Assembly (NCBI GenBank): GCA_007859745.1
Contig: SMLU01000001.1
Location: 1,488,001-1,552,000 of the forward strand
DNA: 64,000 nucleotides
Reading direction: 5' to 3'
Source of the DNA: Phycisphaerae bacterium RAS1
GTDB taxonomy: Bacteria > Planctomycetota > Phycisphaerae > UBA1845 > Fen-1342
Shown in pieces: positions 3,679 to 62,923 of this stretch. Position numbers and translations under genes: made by a program. Positions within the stretch are counted from its first letter, which is position 1; the number at the start of each line of letters is the position of its first letter. A model generated the notes under the pieces. The model was not told where the DNA came from. It made no database searches and worked only from the letters and a program-made list of their open reading frames with translations.

Positions 3679-3759
3679 TCAAGTGTCGAGTTCAGAGTTC
3701 AAAGTTCAGAGTTCTGCGTCCTGCGTGTTCACTCTGAACTCTGAACGTTGAACTTCGGA
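3679..3759. repeat. Heptad array 1 (two complementary arms)
   Basis: The left arm is about four copies of a 7-base unit close to GTTCAGA (3685-3716). The right arm (3731-3757) carries the complementary unit TCTGAAC. A short GCGTCCTGCG spacer lies between, so the whole can fold into one long imperfect hairpin. It fills the gap between tRNA-His and the M3 peptidase gene. Related arrays occur at 26.9, 42.5, 54.5 and 58.5 kb. Confidence 0.85.
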
Positions 3760-3808
3760 ATTCGCACTGCGATCTTCGAACACAGCACCGCTTTTCCGGG
3801 AGTATTCC

Positions 3809-24894: not shown

Positions 24895-26922
24895 ATGAGC
24901 TTTCTGAACCTGTGGGCCTTTGCGATCGCCGGCGCGGTCATTCCCACGCTTCTCATCCTCTACTTCCTGAAGCTCCGTCGCCGGGAGGAGGTCGTCCCCT
25001 CCACGCTCCTGTGGAAAAAGGCCATACAGGACCTTCAGGTCAACGCGCCTTTTCAGAAGCTGCGCAAGAACCTGCTGCTTTTCCTGCAACTGCTCATCCT
25101 GTCGGCGGCCATCACGGCCCTGGCGCGGCCGATCGTCCAGACGAATGAGTCGCAGGACGAGCGCGTCGTCCTGCTGATAGACCGCTCGGCCTCGATGAAT
25201 ACGCGCGAAGGCGACCACACGCGCTTCGAGCTGGCCCGAGAACAGGCCATCCGCCGCGTGAAGACGTACAACCGCCGCAGCAGCGGGTGGTTCTCGTTTG
25301 TCGGCGGCCAGGCGCCGACGAAGGTGATGGTGATCGCGTTCGCCGACCGCGCCCGCGTGGTGGCGCCGTTCACTGTGAACACGAACGAGCTGGTGGAGCT
25401 GATCCGCGGCGTCGAGCCCAGCGACGCACGCACCAATCTGCGCGAGGCGCTGGAGCTGGCTGAGGCCTACATGCTCCCGCCCTCAATGACCACCGACAAA
25501 ACCCCCGTCGCCACCGAGGCCCCCGCCCGACTGCTGATGTTCTCCGACGGCTGTGTGCCGGGCATGAACGAGCTGGTGCTTCGCGGCGGAACGATGGAAT
25601 GGGTGCGCATCGGCGACGCGACCGACAACGTCGGCATCACGGCGCTGCGCACCCAGCGAAGCTACGAGGAGCCGGAATTGCTCGACGTGTTTCTTCAGGT
25701 CGAGAATTTCGGGGCGACGCCGGTGCAGACCGACGTCTCGATCCACATCAATGGGCAGCTCAGCCAGGGCCGCGTGCGAACGGTTTCGCTCGGGCCGGCG
25801 GCGCCGCGGCGCGACGTTGGCGCTGAAACGCGACCCGAACCAGGTGCGGATGCCGGACAGGGCGCCAGCCGCACCATCAGTTTCGAGCTCACGGTGGACG
25901 AGGCGGCGGTGCTCGAGGCGCGGCTCTCGCGGACTGACGCGCTGGCGGTGGATAATTCCGCCTGGGCGGTCATCCCGCCGCCGCGGAAGCTGAAGGTGCT
26001 GGTCGCGTCCGCCGGCAATCCGTTCATCGAAAGCGTGCTGGCGGGCCTGCCGCTCGAAAAGCGCGTTTTCGTCCGCCCGGACGAATATGAGAAGATGCCC
26101 GCCGCCGAGCTGGAGGCGGACGGCCGCGCGGTCTACGACCTCATTGTTCTCGACAAGCACTCAACGGCGCGCCTGCCCGCCGGAAACTATCTCTTTCTCG
26201 GAGCCGCCCCGCAAATTTCCGGCGTGCAGCTCGGCGAGGAGTTCGGCCCGCATCCGCTCATCTGGTGGGATGAGACGCACGCGGTTTTGCGGCACGTCTT
26301 GCTCGATTACGTCGTCGTGTTCAAGAGTCGCGTGCTCACCGCGCCGCCGGAATCACAAGTTCTGGTCGAAGGTCCGCGCGGGCCGGTGATGGTGCGCTAC
26401 GCCAACGAAGGCCGCCACTTCCTCATCTGCAGCGCCGCCGTCGAAAACACCAACTGGTGGCGAAAACGCAGCTTCGGCGTTTTCATGCACAACGCCACCC
26501 GCTACCTCGGCAGCGGCGGCGCGGAGGAGAGCCAGTCCGGCGTGCACCCCGGCGACACGCTCATGCTGACCGTCCCGGCCGGGACGCAGGAAGCCAAGCT
26601 CATCCGGCCGGATGCCGCCACGCCGCGCGTGCGGGTCGACGCGGACGGCGGCATGCGCTACAGCGACACGGAGCGGGTCGGGGTCTATCGGGTCGAGCCG
26701 GGCGTGAGCGGCCGCGACCGGGCCGCCGTGAATATCGAGGATCGCCGCGAGAGCGACATCGTCCCGCCCGGCGGCGTCCTGAAGCTCGGCGGCGGCGTGC
26801 AGGTGGCGCAGGCGCAGCAGATCCGCACGTCCACGCCGGAGGTGTGGCGATGGTTCATCGGCCTGGCGCTGGCGGTGGTGCTGCTGGAGTGGTACATATA
26901 CAATCGCCGTGTGATGATCTAG
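24895..26922 (+). CDS. BatA-like membrane protein with von Willebrand A domain
   Basis: The 675-residue product starts with the BatA-type membrane region: LNLWAFAIAGAVIPTLLILY, then KLRRREEVVPSTLLWKKAIQD and a second membrane helix near 60-80. A VWA domain follows with the metal-ion site LLIDRSASMNTR (DxSxS, about residues 97-108) and a TNLREALELAE segment (metal-site threonine). The C-terminal half is a large extracytoplasmic region ending in one membrane helix (about 650-668). Related proteins occur beside MoxR ATPases in planctomycetes and may act in envelope stress or protease complexes; no MoxR gene is visible here. ATG at 24895 starts exactly at the membrane helix. Confidence 0.82.
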   Translation: MSFLNLWAFAIAGAVIPTLLILYFLKLRRREEVVPSTLLWKKAIQDLQVNAPFQKLRKNLLLFLQLLILSAAITALARPIVQTNESQDERVVLLIDRSASMNTREGDHTRFELAREQAIRRVKTYNRRSSGWFSFVGGQAPTKVMVIAFADRARVVAPFTVNTNELVELIRGVEPSDARTNLREALELAEAYMLPPSMTTDKTPVATEAPARLLMFSDGCVPGMNELVLRGGTMEWVRIGDATDNVGITALRTQRSYEEPELLDVFLQVENFGATPVQTDVSIHINGQLSQGRVRTVSLGPAAPRRDVGAETRPEPGADAGQGASRTISFELTVDEAAVLEARLSRTDALAVDNSAWAVIPPPRKLKVLVASAGNPFIESVLAGLPLEKRVFVRPDEYEKMPAAELEADGRAVYDLIVLDKHSTARLPAGNYLFLGAAPQISGVQLGEEFGPHPLIWWDETHAVLRHVLLDYVVVFKSRVLTAPPESQVLVEGPRGPVMVRYANEGRHFLICSAAVENTNWWRKRSFGVFMHNATRYLGSGGAEESQSGVHPGDTLMLTVPAGTQEAKLIRPDAATPRVRVDADGGMRYSDTERVGVYRVEPGVSGRDRAAVNIEDRRESDIVPPGGVLKLGGGVQVAQAQQIRTSTPEVWRWFIGLALAVVLLEWYIYNRRVMI

Positions 26923-27014
26923 GTTCAGAGTAGCGAGTTCAGAGTAGCGAGTTGCAGATGAACTCCGAACTCCGAACTCTGAACTCTGAACTTTGAACTT
27001 CGAACATTGAACTC
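26922..27014. repeat. Heptad array 2 (two complementary arms, mixed units)
   Basis: The left arm alternates two 7-base units, GTTCAGA and GTAGCGA. The right arm has eight units near AACTCTG (complement of CAGAGTT). The array fills the whole gap between the stop of the VWA gene (ending 26922) and the ATG at 27018. GTAGCGA is the unit of array 3 at 54.5 kb. Confidence 0.88.
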
Positions 27015-42539: not shown

Positions 42540-42637
42540 GGAATGTCGAATGTCGAATGCAGAATTTCGAAGGAAAAAACACCGGACGCGCCGCATGCGC
42601 GAGGGGCCGATACAGAATTCGACATTCGACATTTCGG
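42540..42637. repeat. Heptad array 4 (two complementary arms)
   Basis: The left arm has units GAATGTC, GAATGTC, GAATGCA, GAATTTC; the right arm has GAATTC, GACATTC, GACATTT (complement of the left). A roughly 45-base spacer lies between. It sits in the gap between the stop of the ATPase gene (42644) and the start of the permease gene (42524), inside one operon. Confidence 0.85.
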
Positions 42638-51764: not shown

Positions 51765-51912
51765 GCCGAACCCGCCGCGCCAAGCGGCGGGTTGACGATC
51801 GTGGGCGGGCGGCGACTCACAGGCTGGGGACGTCACCCCGCCGCTTGGCGCGGCGGGTTCGGAAAGATCGGCACGTCACCCCGCCGCTTGGCGCGGCGGG
51901 TTCGGAAAGATC
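51765..51912. repeat. Family A repeat with three hairpins, copy 5
   Basis: One left-type hairpin (CCGAACCCGCCGCGCCAAGC, from 51767) is followed by two right-type hairpins (CGTCACCCCGCCGCTTGG at 51830 and again at 51874), each ending GGCGGGTTCGGAAAGATCGG. The extra right hairpin looks like a tandem duplication. It lies in the divergent gap between clpS and ribBA; no FMN riboswitch is visible there. Confidence 0.9.
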
Positions 51913-52009
51913 GGCCCGCCGCAAGGCCGCCGCGCCTGCCCAAATCTGTGGTCACACGCTGCACCCACCGCCCGTCGCACGTTCGCGGAAACCGGCTAGA
52001 ATCAGGCCT

Positions 52010-53849: not shown

Positions 53850-54455
53850 GTGGAAGCACCGAGTTCGACCGGCGGCGTCGGTTACGACGCGCAGCTTGTT
53901 CGAAAAGCCGTCGCCGGAAAGAGCGGTGCGTTTGACGAGCTGGTCGAGCGTTACCAGCGTCGCGCTACGGCGGTCGCCTACCGCCTTCTGGGGAATCTGC
54001 ACGATTCCCTGGAGGTGTGTCAGGACGCGTTTGTGCGGGCGTACCGCAACATCGACACGCTGGAAGACCCGGAGCGTTTCGGCCCATGGCTCTTGCGAAT
54101 CGTCACCAACCTCTCGCTGAACTACCGCCGGGCCCGCAAGAGCGGGGCGCGGAAGATTTCGCTGGAGGACTGCATCATCGGCGACGAGGGTTCGACCACG
54201 ACGCTGGCGGGCGACTCGCCCGCCTCCGAGGACCGTCCGGGCGCGCGGCTGGCGGCGGCGGAGCTGTCGGCCAAGATGCAGGCGGCGATCAGCGAGCTGC
54301 CCGAGCAGCAGCAACTGGCGCTGGTCCTCTTTTCGATCGAGAACATGCCGCAAAAGGACGTCGCGTCGATCATGGGCGTGAGCGTCGAGGCGGTGAAGTG
54401 GCACGTTTTTCAGGCGCGCAAGAAGCTGAAGGAACGGCTGGCGGATTATCTTTGA
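53850..54455 (+). CDS. ECF-family RNA polymerase sigma factor
   Basis: The 201-residue product has ECF sigma regions 2 and 4. Region 2 reads FDELVERYQRRATAVAYRLL, DSLEVCQDAFVRAYRNID and FGPWLLRIVTNLSLNYRRA (about residues 20-92). Region 4 reads ISELPEQQQLALVLFSIENM, QKDVASIMGVSVEAVKWHVF and QARKKLKERLADYL (about 145-201). The linker is acidic and Ser/Thr/Ala-rich. It directs RNA polymerase to specific promoters and is likely held by the anti-sigma-like protein encoded next. GTG at 53850 is chosen as the nearest start to region 2. A heptad array begins one base after the stop. Confidence 0.9.
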   Translation: MEAPSSTGGVGYDAQLVRKAVAGKSGAFDELVERYQRRATAVAYRLLGNLHDSLEVCQDAFVRAYRNIDTLEDPERFGPWLLRIVTNLSLNYRRARKSGARKISLEDCIIGDEGSTTTLAGDSPASEDRPGARLAAAELSAKMQAAISELPEQQQLALVLFSIENMPQKDVASIMGVSVEAVKWHVFQARKKLKERLADYL

Positions 54456-54562
54456 ATAGCGAGCGTCGAGTAGCGAGTAGCGAGTTACAGAGCGCGCGCG
54501 CCCGGCGGGCGCGAAACCGGCGCGCCTTTGACTCGCTACTCGCTACTCGCTACTCGCTACTT
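54454..54562. repeat. Heptad array 3 (two complementary arms)
   Basis: Left arm: GCGAGCG, TCGAGTA, GCGAGTA, GCGAGTT (unit CGAGTAG). Right arm: four clean copies of CTACTCG (54533-54560), the complement. A GC-rich spacer (GCGCGCGCGCCCGGCGGGCG and on) lies between. It fills the gap between the sigma stop and the anti-sigma start, leaving 14 bases before that ATG. Confidence 0.92.
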
Positions 54563-58481: not shown

Positions 58482-58510
58482 CCCACCGGGCGCCGTGACT
58501 GGCGGCGGGC

Positions 58511-58624
58511 GAAGTCAGAAGTCAGAATTAAGAAGTCAGAAGTATAGACCGTGCCTCCGCACACCATTCGCCGACGGGTGCCTCTCTTCACTTCTGACTT
58601 CTGACTTCAAACTTCTGACCTCTT
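58511..58624. repeat. Heptad array 5 (two complementary arms)
   Basis: Left arm: GAAGTCA, GAAGTCA, GAATTAA, GAAGTCA, GAAGTAT (58511-58545). Right arm: TCACTTC, TGACTTC, TGACTTC, AAACTTC, TGACCTC (complement of the left). About 45 bases separate the arms. It lies between the Uma2 remnant and hutU. Confidence 0.9.
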
Positions 58625-58640: not shown

Positions 58641-60575
58641 ATGTCCGCAACCTCCCCCCCCCCCTTCATCCGCGCCCCGCGCGGCTCGCAGCTCTCCTGC
58701 AAAGGCTGGCTGCAGGAAGCCGCCCTGCGCATGCTCATGAACAACCTCGACCCGGACGTGGCCGAAAAGCCTGACGAGCTGATCGTCTACGGCGGCATCG
58801 GCAAGGCCGCCCGTTCGTGGCCCGACTTCGAGCGCATCGTCGCCACGCTGCGGCGTCTCGAAAACGACGAAACGATGCTGGTGCAGAGCGGCCGGGCGGT
58901 GGGCGTGATCAAGACGCACACCGACGCCCCGCGCGTGCTCATCAGCAACAGCATGTTGGTACCGAAATGGGCGACGTGGGACGAATTTCGCCGGCTCGAA
59001 GCGCTGGGCCTGATCATGTACGGCCAGATGACGGCCGGCTCGTGGATTTACATCGGGACGCAGGGGATCTTGCAGGGGACGTATGAGACGTTTGCGGCGC
59101 TGGCGAAACGCCATTTCGGCGAAGGGATTGAGGGATCGAGGGATCGAGGGATCAAGAGCAGGCAGCAGGGAACGGGGAACAGGGAACAGAAGGACGGCGG
59201 TCCCGCGGGTGCCGGGACGCTGCGCGGCAAGCTGGTCGTTACAGGTGGCCTCGGGGGGATGGGCGGGGCGCAGCCGCTGGCGGCGACGTCTAACGACGGG
59301 ACGTTTCTGGCCGCCGATGTTGATCGTTCGCGGATCGAGAAACGTCTGAAGACGTGCTACCTGGACAAGATGACGGAGAGTCTCGATGAGGCGATCGCGC
59401 TGGCGGTCGCCGCTCGCGATCGGCAACAAGCCGTTAGCATCGGCTGGGTCGGCAATGTCGTCGATCTGCTGCGCGAGCTGATCCGCCGCGACATCACGCC
59501 GGACGTGCTGACCGATCAGACTTCGGCGCATGATCCGCTCACCGGATACGTGCCGAACGGCGTCAGGGAACAGGGAACAGGCAGCAGGGATCAGAGGGCC
59601 TGGGGCGCGGGGCGCGGGGCGCAGGGCACGGGGGGCGGGCGGGACGCCGACCGTGGGACAGTCCGGCCGCTTACCTACGAGCAGGCGCTTCGGCTCCGCG
59701 AGGAGAATCCGGATCGCTACGTTCGCGAGAGCTATCGCACGATGGCCGAGCACGTGGCGTGCATGCTGGAGCTGCAACGCCGCGGGGCGATCACGTTTGA
59801 CTACGGCAACAACCTCCGCGGCCACGCGAAGGAAGCGATTGAGCGAGGATACGTGACCGTTGACCATCTGAACTCGCTACTCGCTACTCGCTACTCTGAA
59901 CTTGATGCGTTCCGCATTCCCGGCTTCGTGCCCGAGTACATCCGCCCGCTCTTCTGTGAAGGCTCCGGGCCGTTCCGCTGGGCGGCCCTCTCCGGCGAAC
60001 CCGCGGATATCGCCGTCACCGACCGGGCCGTGCTTGAGACGTTCCCGGAAGAGGAGCACCTTTGCCGCTGGATTCGCATGGCGGGCGAGAAGGTCGCGTT
60101 TCAGGGGCTGCCGGCGCGGATTTGCTGGCTCAAGTATGGCCAGCGGGCGAAGATGGGGCTGATCTTCAACCGCCTCGTGCGAGAAAAGAAAGTCGCCGCC
60201 CCGATCGTCATCGGCCGCGACCATCTGGATTGCGGCTCGGTCGCGTCGCCCAACCGCGAGACAGAGGCGATGAAAGACGGCTCGGACGCCATCGCGGACT
60301 GGCCGATCCTGAACGCGCTCATCAACACCGCCTGCGGCGCAAGCTGGGTCAGCGTCCACCACGGCGGCGGCGTCGGAATCGGCTACAGCATTCACGCCGG
60401 CCAGGTGATCGTCTGCGACGGCACGGCTGAGGCGGACCGGCGCTTGCAGCGCGTGCTGACGGCCGACCCGGCGATGGGCGTCATTCGCCACGCCGACGCC
60501 GGCTACGAGTTGGCCCAGCGGGTCGCCCACGACAAAGGCGTCGACTTGGGTGGCATGGGTCACGGTACTCCGTGA
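58641..60575 (+). CDS. hutU: Urocanate hydratase with three in-frame repeat insertions
   Basis: The 644-residue product converts urocanate to imidazolonepropionate in histidine degradation, using NAD+ as a tightly held cofactor. Family landmarks are intact: [19 protein letters not shown] (about 202-220), [52 protein letters not shown] and [20 protein letters not shown]. Usual length is about 550-560 residues. The excess comes from three stretches: residues about 161-192, 308-343 and 402-422, each encoded by arrays of 7- or 8-base units. The last residues GGMGHGTP and the stop are encoded by a REP hairpin. No other hut genes are in the window. Confidence 0.93.
59123..59194. repeat. Repeat-unit array 6 in hutU
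   Basis: 8-base units GGGATTGA, GGGATCGA, GGGATCGA, GGGATCAA, then GAGCA, GGCAGCA and 7-base GGGAACA units. Only G-rich arms occur; no complementary arm is present. Read in frame as [20 protein letters not shown]. Confidence 0.9.
59563..59640. repeat. Repeat-unit array 7 in hutU
   Basis: GGGAACA, GGGAACA, GGCAGCA, GGGATCA, GAGGGCC, then several GGGGCGC units and CAGGGCA. It shares GGGAACA and GGCAGCA units with the array at 59123. Again single-armed and read in frame. Confidence 0.88.
59868..59905. repeat. Repeat-unit array 8 in hutU (mixed units)
   Basis: GAACTCG, then CTACTCG, CTACTCG, CTACTCT and GAACTTG: it joins the right-arm unit of array 3 (CTACTCG) to that of arrays 1 and 2 (CTCTGAA). 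Read in frame as [12 protein letters not shown]. Confidence 0.88.
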
Positions 60576-61987: not shown

Positions 61988-62192
61988 GTTATCTAAGTAA
62001 TATAAAGCAAATATACGGTCTTATAATATGTAGGCTGGGAAAACCCTAGGCCGGTACTTTCAACACCGCTAGTTCGGCCCCGTCGGAATCGTCAGACGCT
62101 TAAAGCAAACGTGGTGAGCGTTTTGTTGTGACGCGGGGGTGCCATGGGTGCCATGGAAGCCATGAGGGGCCATGCCGAGGTCAACCATGTCG

Positions 62193-62285
62193 AGCGAGCA
62201 CGGGTCACGGAGTACCGTGACCCATGCCACCCACGCCACCTCATGCCACCCACCGTACTCCGTGACCCGTGCTCGCTCGACGTGA
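62193..62285. repeat. Inverted pair of REP hairpins (family H)
   Basis: GTCGAGCGAGCACGGGTCAC with GGAGTACCGTGACCC (62190-62224) is repeated in inverted form as GTACTCCGTGACCCGTGCTC and GCTCGAC (62255-62281). GCCACCC-type leads lie between. It is 45 bases beyond the end of the RAYT gene. Confidence 0.88.
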
Positions 62286-62329
62286 TTGACTTACGAACGT
62301 CCCGCCTTCCGCACCTTGCCCTTGATCAC

Positions 62330-62923
62330 TCATCGCCGTCGACGCGTAATCGTACCGGGCGTCGGCGTCGGAGGCGGGCCGTCCATTTCGAGGATTGTCG
62401 GGCGGACGCCGGCGTACCAGCGGGCGCTCGACCATTCCCAGTCTTCGGGGATTCGACACAGGCCGCGGCGGACGGGGTTGGCGTGGATGTAGTCGATCGC
62501 GGCCCAGACGGCGTCTTCGCGCAAGAGATTGCGGTCGTATCCGCCGCCGGCCTGCCAGAAGTGGTGCTCGACGCGGCCGTCGGGCCAGGTGACGCGCAGG
62601 CGCTCGAGCCATTCGGGGTGGTACTCGCGGATGTGCGCGATGGCGCGACGCGACACGGCGAGCTTGACGGCCTTGCGGACGGCGCCGATATCGACGTCGG
62701 CGGAGGTGGGCCACAGCAACAAGTGCACATGCTCGGGCATGATGACGTAGGCCCAGAGTTCCAGCGGGAATCGGCGGCGGGCCATTTGGAGGGCGTTGAG
62801 AAACCACTGACGGGTGCGGTCGGCCCTGAGGAATGGGTAGCGGCGATAGCAACAAAACGTCAGCTCGTGGGCGTGGCCGGGCTCGTTCCATGTGCGGCGC
62901 GTCTTGAATTTTCGCCAAGGCAT
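62330..62923 (-). CDS. REP-associated tyrosine transposase (RAYT, Y1 HUH family)
   Basis: The 197-residue product matches RAYT/TnpA-REP proteins: an N-terminal ELTFCCYRRYPFLRADRTRQ segment, the HUH motif as MPEHVHLLLWP (about residues 62-72), a catalytic-tyrosine-helix region (ALQMARRRFPLELWAYVIMP upstream; AIAHIREYHPEWLERLRV downstream) and the YIHANPVRRGLCRIPEDWEW tail. RAYTs nick single-stranded DNA at REP hairpins. REP hairpins of one family flank the gene (62193-62285 and 62958-62999) and one lies at the end of hutU, so this gene is the likely mobiliser of family H. ATG at 62923 begins the usual MPWRKFKTRRTW start. Confidence 0.92.
   Translation of the reverse strand: MPWRKFKTRRTWNEPGHAHELTFCCYRRYPFLRADRTRQWFLNALQMARRRFPLELWAYVIMPEHVHLLLWPTSADVDIGAVRKAVKLAVSRRAIAHIREYHPEWLERLRVTWPDGRVEHHFWQAGGGYDRNLLREDAVWAAIDYIHANPVRRGLCRIPEDWEWSSARWYAGVRPTILEMDGPPPTPTPGTITRRRR

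Follow-up and report, generated by a model that had tools for sequence, protein, structure and literature searches.

Tandem arrays of short words lie between the genes of several distantly related bacteria, and four described systems come closest to the arrays considered here. Xanthomonas carries arrays of GGGAATC, which occur as 70 convergent pairs in one genome and 75 in another, and Nostoc carries arrays of GGGGA(C/T)T (Rehm et al. 2015, PMC4692102). The arrays are about 90% intergenic, with few between divergent genes. Up to 50 nt from stop codons the purine strand coincides with the coding strand, and near starts with the non-coding strand; each genome uses one G-rich word, for which quadruplexes have been proposed (PMC4692102). 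The TAACTGA repeats of the Beggiatoaceae are found as 169 direct arrays and 1 inverted array, mostly just upstream of start codons (MacGregor 2015, PMC4679880). REPINs are extragenic inverted doublets of REP sequences with a less conserved spacer and a predicted hairpin (PLoS Genet 2011, PMC3116915), and in the Nostoc trnL(UAA) intron complementary 7-nt repeats ensure pairing of the P6b stem (PMC4476775). The Xanthomonas convergent pairs (PMC4692102) and the P6b pairing (PMC4476775) contradict the original prediction in its premise that known heptads are tandem and never paired. The literature, searched for the repeats as literal strings and for planctomycete heptanucleotides, yielded no report.

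The stretch analysed here, referred to as the window, comprises 64,000 nt of the 5.5 Mb genome of Phycisphaerae bacterium RAS1 (C1:1488001-1552000). All five predicted two-armed arrays are present at the expected positions, and each consists of a purine-rich left (R) arm and a complementary pyrimidine-rich right (Y) arm. All coordinates given for the arms are on the + strand of the window. Element 1 lies behind a tRNA-His gene, with the word GAGTTCA in its R arm (3687..3716) and TGAACTC in its Y arm (3730..3764). The R arm of element 2 (26923..26955) mixes the words GTTCAGA and GTAGCGA and begins directly 3′ of the TAG stop (ending at 26922) of a BatA/VWA gene, while its Y arm of TGAACTC (26959..27013) ends 4 nt 5′ of the next start codon. 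Element 3 separates an ABC ATPase and an ABC permease gene, both encoded on the minus strand, and on the + strand reads GAATGTC in the R arm (42540..42560) and GACATTC in the Y arm (42616..42634). Element 4 directly adjoins the stop codon (TGA) of a gene for an ECF-type sigma factor, with an R arm of GAGTAGC (54456..54486), a loop of unique GC-rich sequence (54487..54529) and a Y arm of GCTACTC (54530..54562) that leaves 14 nt to the ATG of the next gene. Element 5 pairs GAAGTCA (58510..58544) with TGACTTC (58588..58623), 17 nt before the start of a urocanase gene; the preceding called ORF ends 181 nt upstream. A spacing of 1–14 nt to neighbouring genes thus applies to two of the five arrays and not to those at 3.68 and 58.5 kb. 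Folded as RNA, elements 1 to 5 give z-scores of −5.4, −4.4, −4.5, −9.0 and −6.5, respectively, and for each array none of 200 dinucleotide shuffles folds as well, which bears out the predicted complementarity of the arms and their capacity to form hairpins. Among known RNA families, a tRNA is the sole match in the window and none matches the arrays.

To place the five arrays in their genomic context, 1.6 Mb (29% of the genome) was read, which yielded 42 two-armed elements, or about 26 per Mb, using a word list drawn from the same genome that was scanned. The first 0.8 Mb contains 34 period-7 runs and 23 period-8 runs, as compared with none of either in a Markov copy. At least ten words are in use. 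Heptads include GAGTAGC, GAAGTCA, GAATGTC, GAGTTCA, GGTGACA and CAGGGAA, and the octads CACGGAGA, CACAGAGG and GGGATCAA build the same two-armed structure, so that the heptad proposed as the unit describes the five window arrays but not the genome as a whole. Individual arms have a polarity of their own: arms of CACGGAG usually hold three units between conserved ends (AACAACCACGG... or AATTGAACCACGG... to ...GAGAA), and by eye G(T)TGAAGA is a common arm ending for both GAAGTCA and GAGTAGC. The suggestion of a distinct element class is upheld by this abundance, by a strongly intergenic position at gene ends and by two matched arms; its members consist of two arms, each a tandem run of words of 7 or 8 nt, that converge in a fixed order, R then Y, around a unique loop. 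The word arrays resemble a dispersed repeat of wide occurrence more than an RNA device with an essential role. Inverted repeats with a score of at least 20 number 288 in the 1.6 Mb; an order-2 Markov copy has 0, and a relative has 2 in 380 kb. Most of the non-periodic ones among the 288 are REP-type palindromes, not word arrays. A perfect 43-bp tandem duplication at 51830-51930 of the window has a REP-like palindrome inside (CGCCGCTTGGCGCGGCGG).

The order of the arms is nearly invariant. With known words the purine arm precedes the pyrimidine arm in a ratio of 44:1, and the ratio is 32:2 when no words are assumed. A relative, G010, shows 9:0 with words that are mostly octads such as GGGTCCGA. 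Across the 392 genomes compared within the phylum, a purine-first GAAGTCA hairpin occurs in two, RAS1 and one other, and a pyrimidine-first hairpin in none. At 119 (GAAGTCA)3 loci from many phyla, a complementary arm lies on the 3′ side in 10 and on the 5′ side in 0. Both arms carry the same word in 36 of the 42 pairs, where 15% (about 6) would be expected, and the purine-then-pyrimidine order is kept in 10 of the 10 elements whose two words differ. Arms within an element match no better than arms of different elements that share a word (p = 0.62), which speaks against one arm having been copied from its partner as a mirror image. The 39 loops that were compared mutually and with the 1.6 Mb are unique except for one tandem-duplicated pair; their matches in the 1.6 Mb are no more frequent than those of random segments (8/39 vs 9/39), and on this ground copying of whole elements is rejected. 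The duplicated pair, two adjacent CACGGAGA elements with near-identical loops at C1:2457148-2457517, is the sole whole-element duplication seen. Six Okeania loci (L078, L087, L102, L104, L126 and L137) carry a recurrent single-arm element, TTAAC-(GAAGTCA)n-GAAGTTATTTTTGTAACGGGG, whose ends are conserved and in which the word GAAGTCA is dispersed in yet another form. In one relative (G059) the backwards control word AGACTGA matches 11 times, and its lineage seems to use the reversed word. The same short words with the same strand polarity are met in distant bacteria without a known carrier or enzyme.

The elements are strongly concentrated outside genes, with 35 of 42 being intergenic where 15% of the DNA is (P = 2e-22); the even scatter over coding and intergenic DNA that would have spoken against a distinct class is not seen. 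The intergenic elements occupy 27 tandem, 6 convergent and 2 divergent gaps, so that the proposed placement between co-directional genes describes the majority and not the convergent and divergent cases. Divergent gaps are avoided (2/35; P = 7e-4 by length, 0.014 by gap number). Lone arms sit at a predicted gene edge in 41 of 49 cases (P = 2e-6), 31 of them at a stop, with medians of 6 nt from stops and 37 nt at start edges, the genes having been called by a simple codon-usage caller whose start positions are approximate. Behind stops, the purine strand is the sense strand. The seven two-armed elements called as lying inside genes may partly reflect gene-calling errors.

Confinement to intergenic gaps holds for most two-armed elements and not for one-armed stretches, which also occur inside genes. 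The urocanase gene (Pfam match; 58641-60575 of the window) is lengthened by in-frame word arrays at three sites on the + strand. Site 1 (59123..59189) holds a stop-free GGGATCGA array of period 8 followed by CAGGGAA of period 7, site 2 (59563..59642) holds CAGGGAA and GGGGCGC arrays, and site 3 (59871..59897) holds an ACTCGCT array in its stop-free orientation. In other genera, sites 1 and 2 are occupied by GGCACGAA octads, REP-like hairpins, nothing or, at site 2, CAGGGAA. Where (GAAGTCA)3 arrays lie in genes, the purine strand is in sense in 29 of 29 cases across phyla. No other orientation is open to these arrays, since the opposite strand reads TGA whichever frame is used, and for the same reason genes cannot retain such words as two-armed elements. 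For annotation, the consequence is that word arrays lengthen proteins, as in urocanase, and create strong hairpins inside operons.

Orthologous gaps, compared in relatives that are different genera, point to insertion. The gap behind the sigma gene that holds element 4 measures 13, 26, 31, 44 and 72 nt in relatives, and in one relative the gene after the sigma factor starts near or overlaps its stop. In three further genera the sigma-gene spacer is long (136, 161 and 223 nt) and contains other words; by eye, the spacers of G016 and G010 are purine-then-pyrimidine hairpins of other words, and that of G007 contains a pyrimidine word arm adjoining REP-like hairpins. Different words at one gap could be the outcome of replacement or of separate insertions. 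The gap behind the ABC ATPase gene ranges from −4 to 95 nt in 11 genera, as compared with 128 nt in RAS1, and none of the eleven has a two-armed element there; G006 has a lone GAGTAGC array directly 3′ of the ABC ATPase stop. Element 3 retains flanks of some 9 nt behind the stop and some 25 nt ahead of the start. Since these flanks sum to the spacer of a typical relative, the element can be read as having been inserted cleanly, apparently as some 95 nt within a gap of roughly 30 nt.

We consider the arrays to be a dispersed non-coding repeat that is rewritten from lineage to lineage and tolerated behind genes, its transcribed hairpin being a by-product, and assign this reading a probability of about 0.5. 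What is observed at its base is the apparent clean insertion, the intergenic placement behind stops, the matching of words and the relatives' use of other words in a shared gap. We infer that a word array would be seeded at a tolerated gap, that it would grow and be homogenised by slippage within each arm, and that its words would be replaced by others over time. Selection would purge copies that fall in promoters or disrupt coding frames; the survivors behind stop codons would be two-armed, and those inside proteins one-armed and free of stops. With two arms, the intercistronic transcript would inevitably fold into a stable hairpin, whose influence on mRNA ends, if any, is probably incidental rather than what the elements exist for. 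Neutral tolerance alone fails to explain the absolute polarity, since a hairpin in Y-then-R order would be equally stable, and it does not explain why the purines lie in the sense strand just behind stops. The octad arms, with their fixed length and conserved ends, look like the copying of a defined sequence. The polarity, the shared word of the two arms and the occurrence of other words in one gap are simple facts open to test, and every account of bacterial heptamer repeats has to accommodate them.

The alternative that survives best, which we nevertheless regard as unlikely, is an RNA hairpin at 3′ ends or between cistrons that terminates or insulates transcription in both directions, or shields the upstream cistron from 3′ exonucleases. 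The position behind stops in tandem and convergent gaps, the avoidance of divergent gaps and the stability of the folds relative to shuffled sequence all agree with it, as do outer T-tracts on both sides of octad elements (13/24 flanks versus a 3% background of random intergenic windows, P = 4e-14). These T-tracts belong to the CAC(A/G)GAG octads, for which a terminator function is possible from their sequence, and they may indicate that part of the class is functional. The heptad elements, however, have no T-tract excess (3/51, P = 0.2), so that a classical terminator is rejected for them; the octad loops are often 80–100 nt, long for an intrinsic terminator; many arms are lone; the arms of one element are not specially matched to each other; and most orthologous operon spacers lack any element. 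The pyrimidine-arm words all contain a YC dinucleotide, and candidate Rho-loading sites in these arms would be masked by pairing with the purine arm. The proposal of an RNA device between cistrons is accordingly weakened.

The polarity would also fit elements that arose as repair scars, in which the two 3′ ends left by a spacer break gain the same purine-rich word and then join, in the manner of a head-to-head telomere fusion. Such a scar predicts the purine-then-pyrimidine order even where the words differ, as well as matched words and unique loops; lone arms are expected if one end alone was extended, and the same order is seen in other phyla. This candidate model needs an additional assumption for the conserved inner and outer arm ends, and the spacer flanks are retained without apparent loss; we hold it to be improbable. 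Slightly more doubtful still is mobility of the REPIN type, driven by a REP-associated tyrosine transposase (RAYT). The elements are indeed extragenic inverted doublets with variable spacers, lone arms often adjoin REPs, and the genome is very rich in REP palindromes and has 20 Y1_Tnp loci, the most among 61 genomes. Around those 20 loci, however, word arrays occur at 0.062 per kb versus 0.09 per kb genome-wide, and this lack of enrichment led us to reject a REPIN/RAYT origin; the arms are tandem words in variable number and not one palindromic 16-mer, the spacers have no set length, and paired arms are no purer than lone arms (0.838 vs 0.828, p = 0.82). The window itself has a match to a Y1_Tnp (RAYT-like) transposase on the minus strand (62615-62863), near inverted repeats at 62137-62290. 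Least probable of all, and very unlikely in our estimate, is that the polarity records strand-polar synthesis, for example by a templated polymerase that would add lineage-specific words of 7 or 8 nt to both 3′ ends of a lesion across bacterial phyla, leaving interstitial telomere-like repeats.

Read as a tolerated, lineage-rewritten repeat, the RAS1 elements can be set against the known systems. The Nostoc trnL(UAA) P6b repeats are confined to one group I intron locus, whereas the RAS1 arrays are dispersed between genes. REPINs share with them the extragenic inverted doublet with hairpin potential, but are built from a palindromic 16-mer with a fixed spacer and a RAYT link, in place of which RAS1 has tandem words. 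The cyanobacterial STRR heptamers and the TAACTGA repeats are likewise intergenic tandem 7-nt words found across distant phyla without a known carrier, and stop codons in one orientation likewise restrict their sites; almost all of them are direct arrays, mostly before starts, whereas the RAS1 arrays lie behind stops. The Xanthomonas type is the nearest, with 7-nt purine-rich words, convergent same-word pairs (in RAS1, 44:1 in order and 36/42 with the same word) and placement at gene edges (in RAS1, 41/49 lone arms at a predicted edge, at a median of 6 nt from stops). It differs in its G-rich word GGGANTN, for which quadruplex formation is proposed, whereas most RAS1 words (GAAGTCA, GAGTAGC, GAGTTCA and GAATGTC) have no G-runs, and RAS1 has at least ten words, periods of 7 and 8, matched two-armed forms and nesting with REPs. 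Heptamer arrays that pair convergently and take the same position at gene edges were therefore known in outline from Xanthomonas. New in RAS1 are the use of many words with periods of 7 and 8, a polarity that does not depend on the word, and the fact that relatives hold other words in a shared gap.
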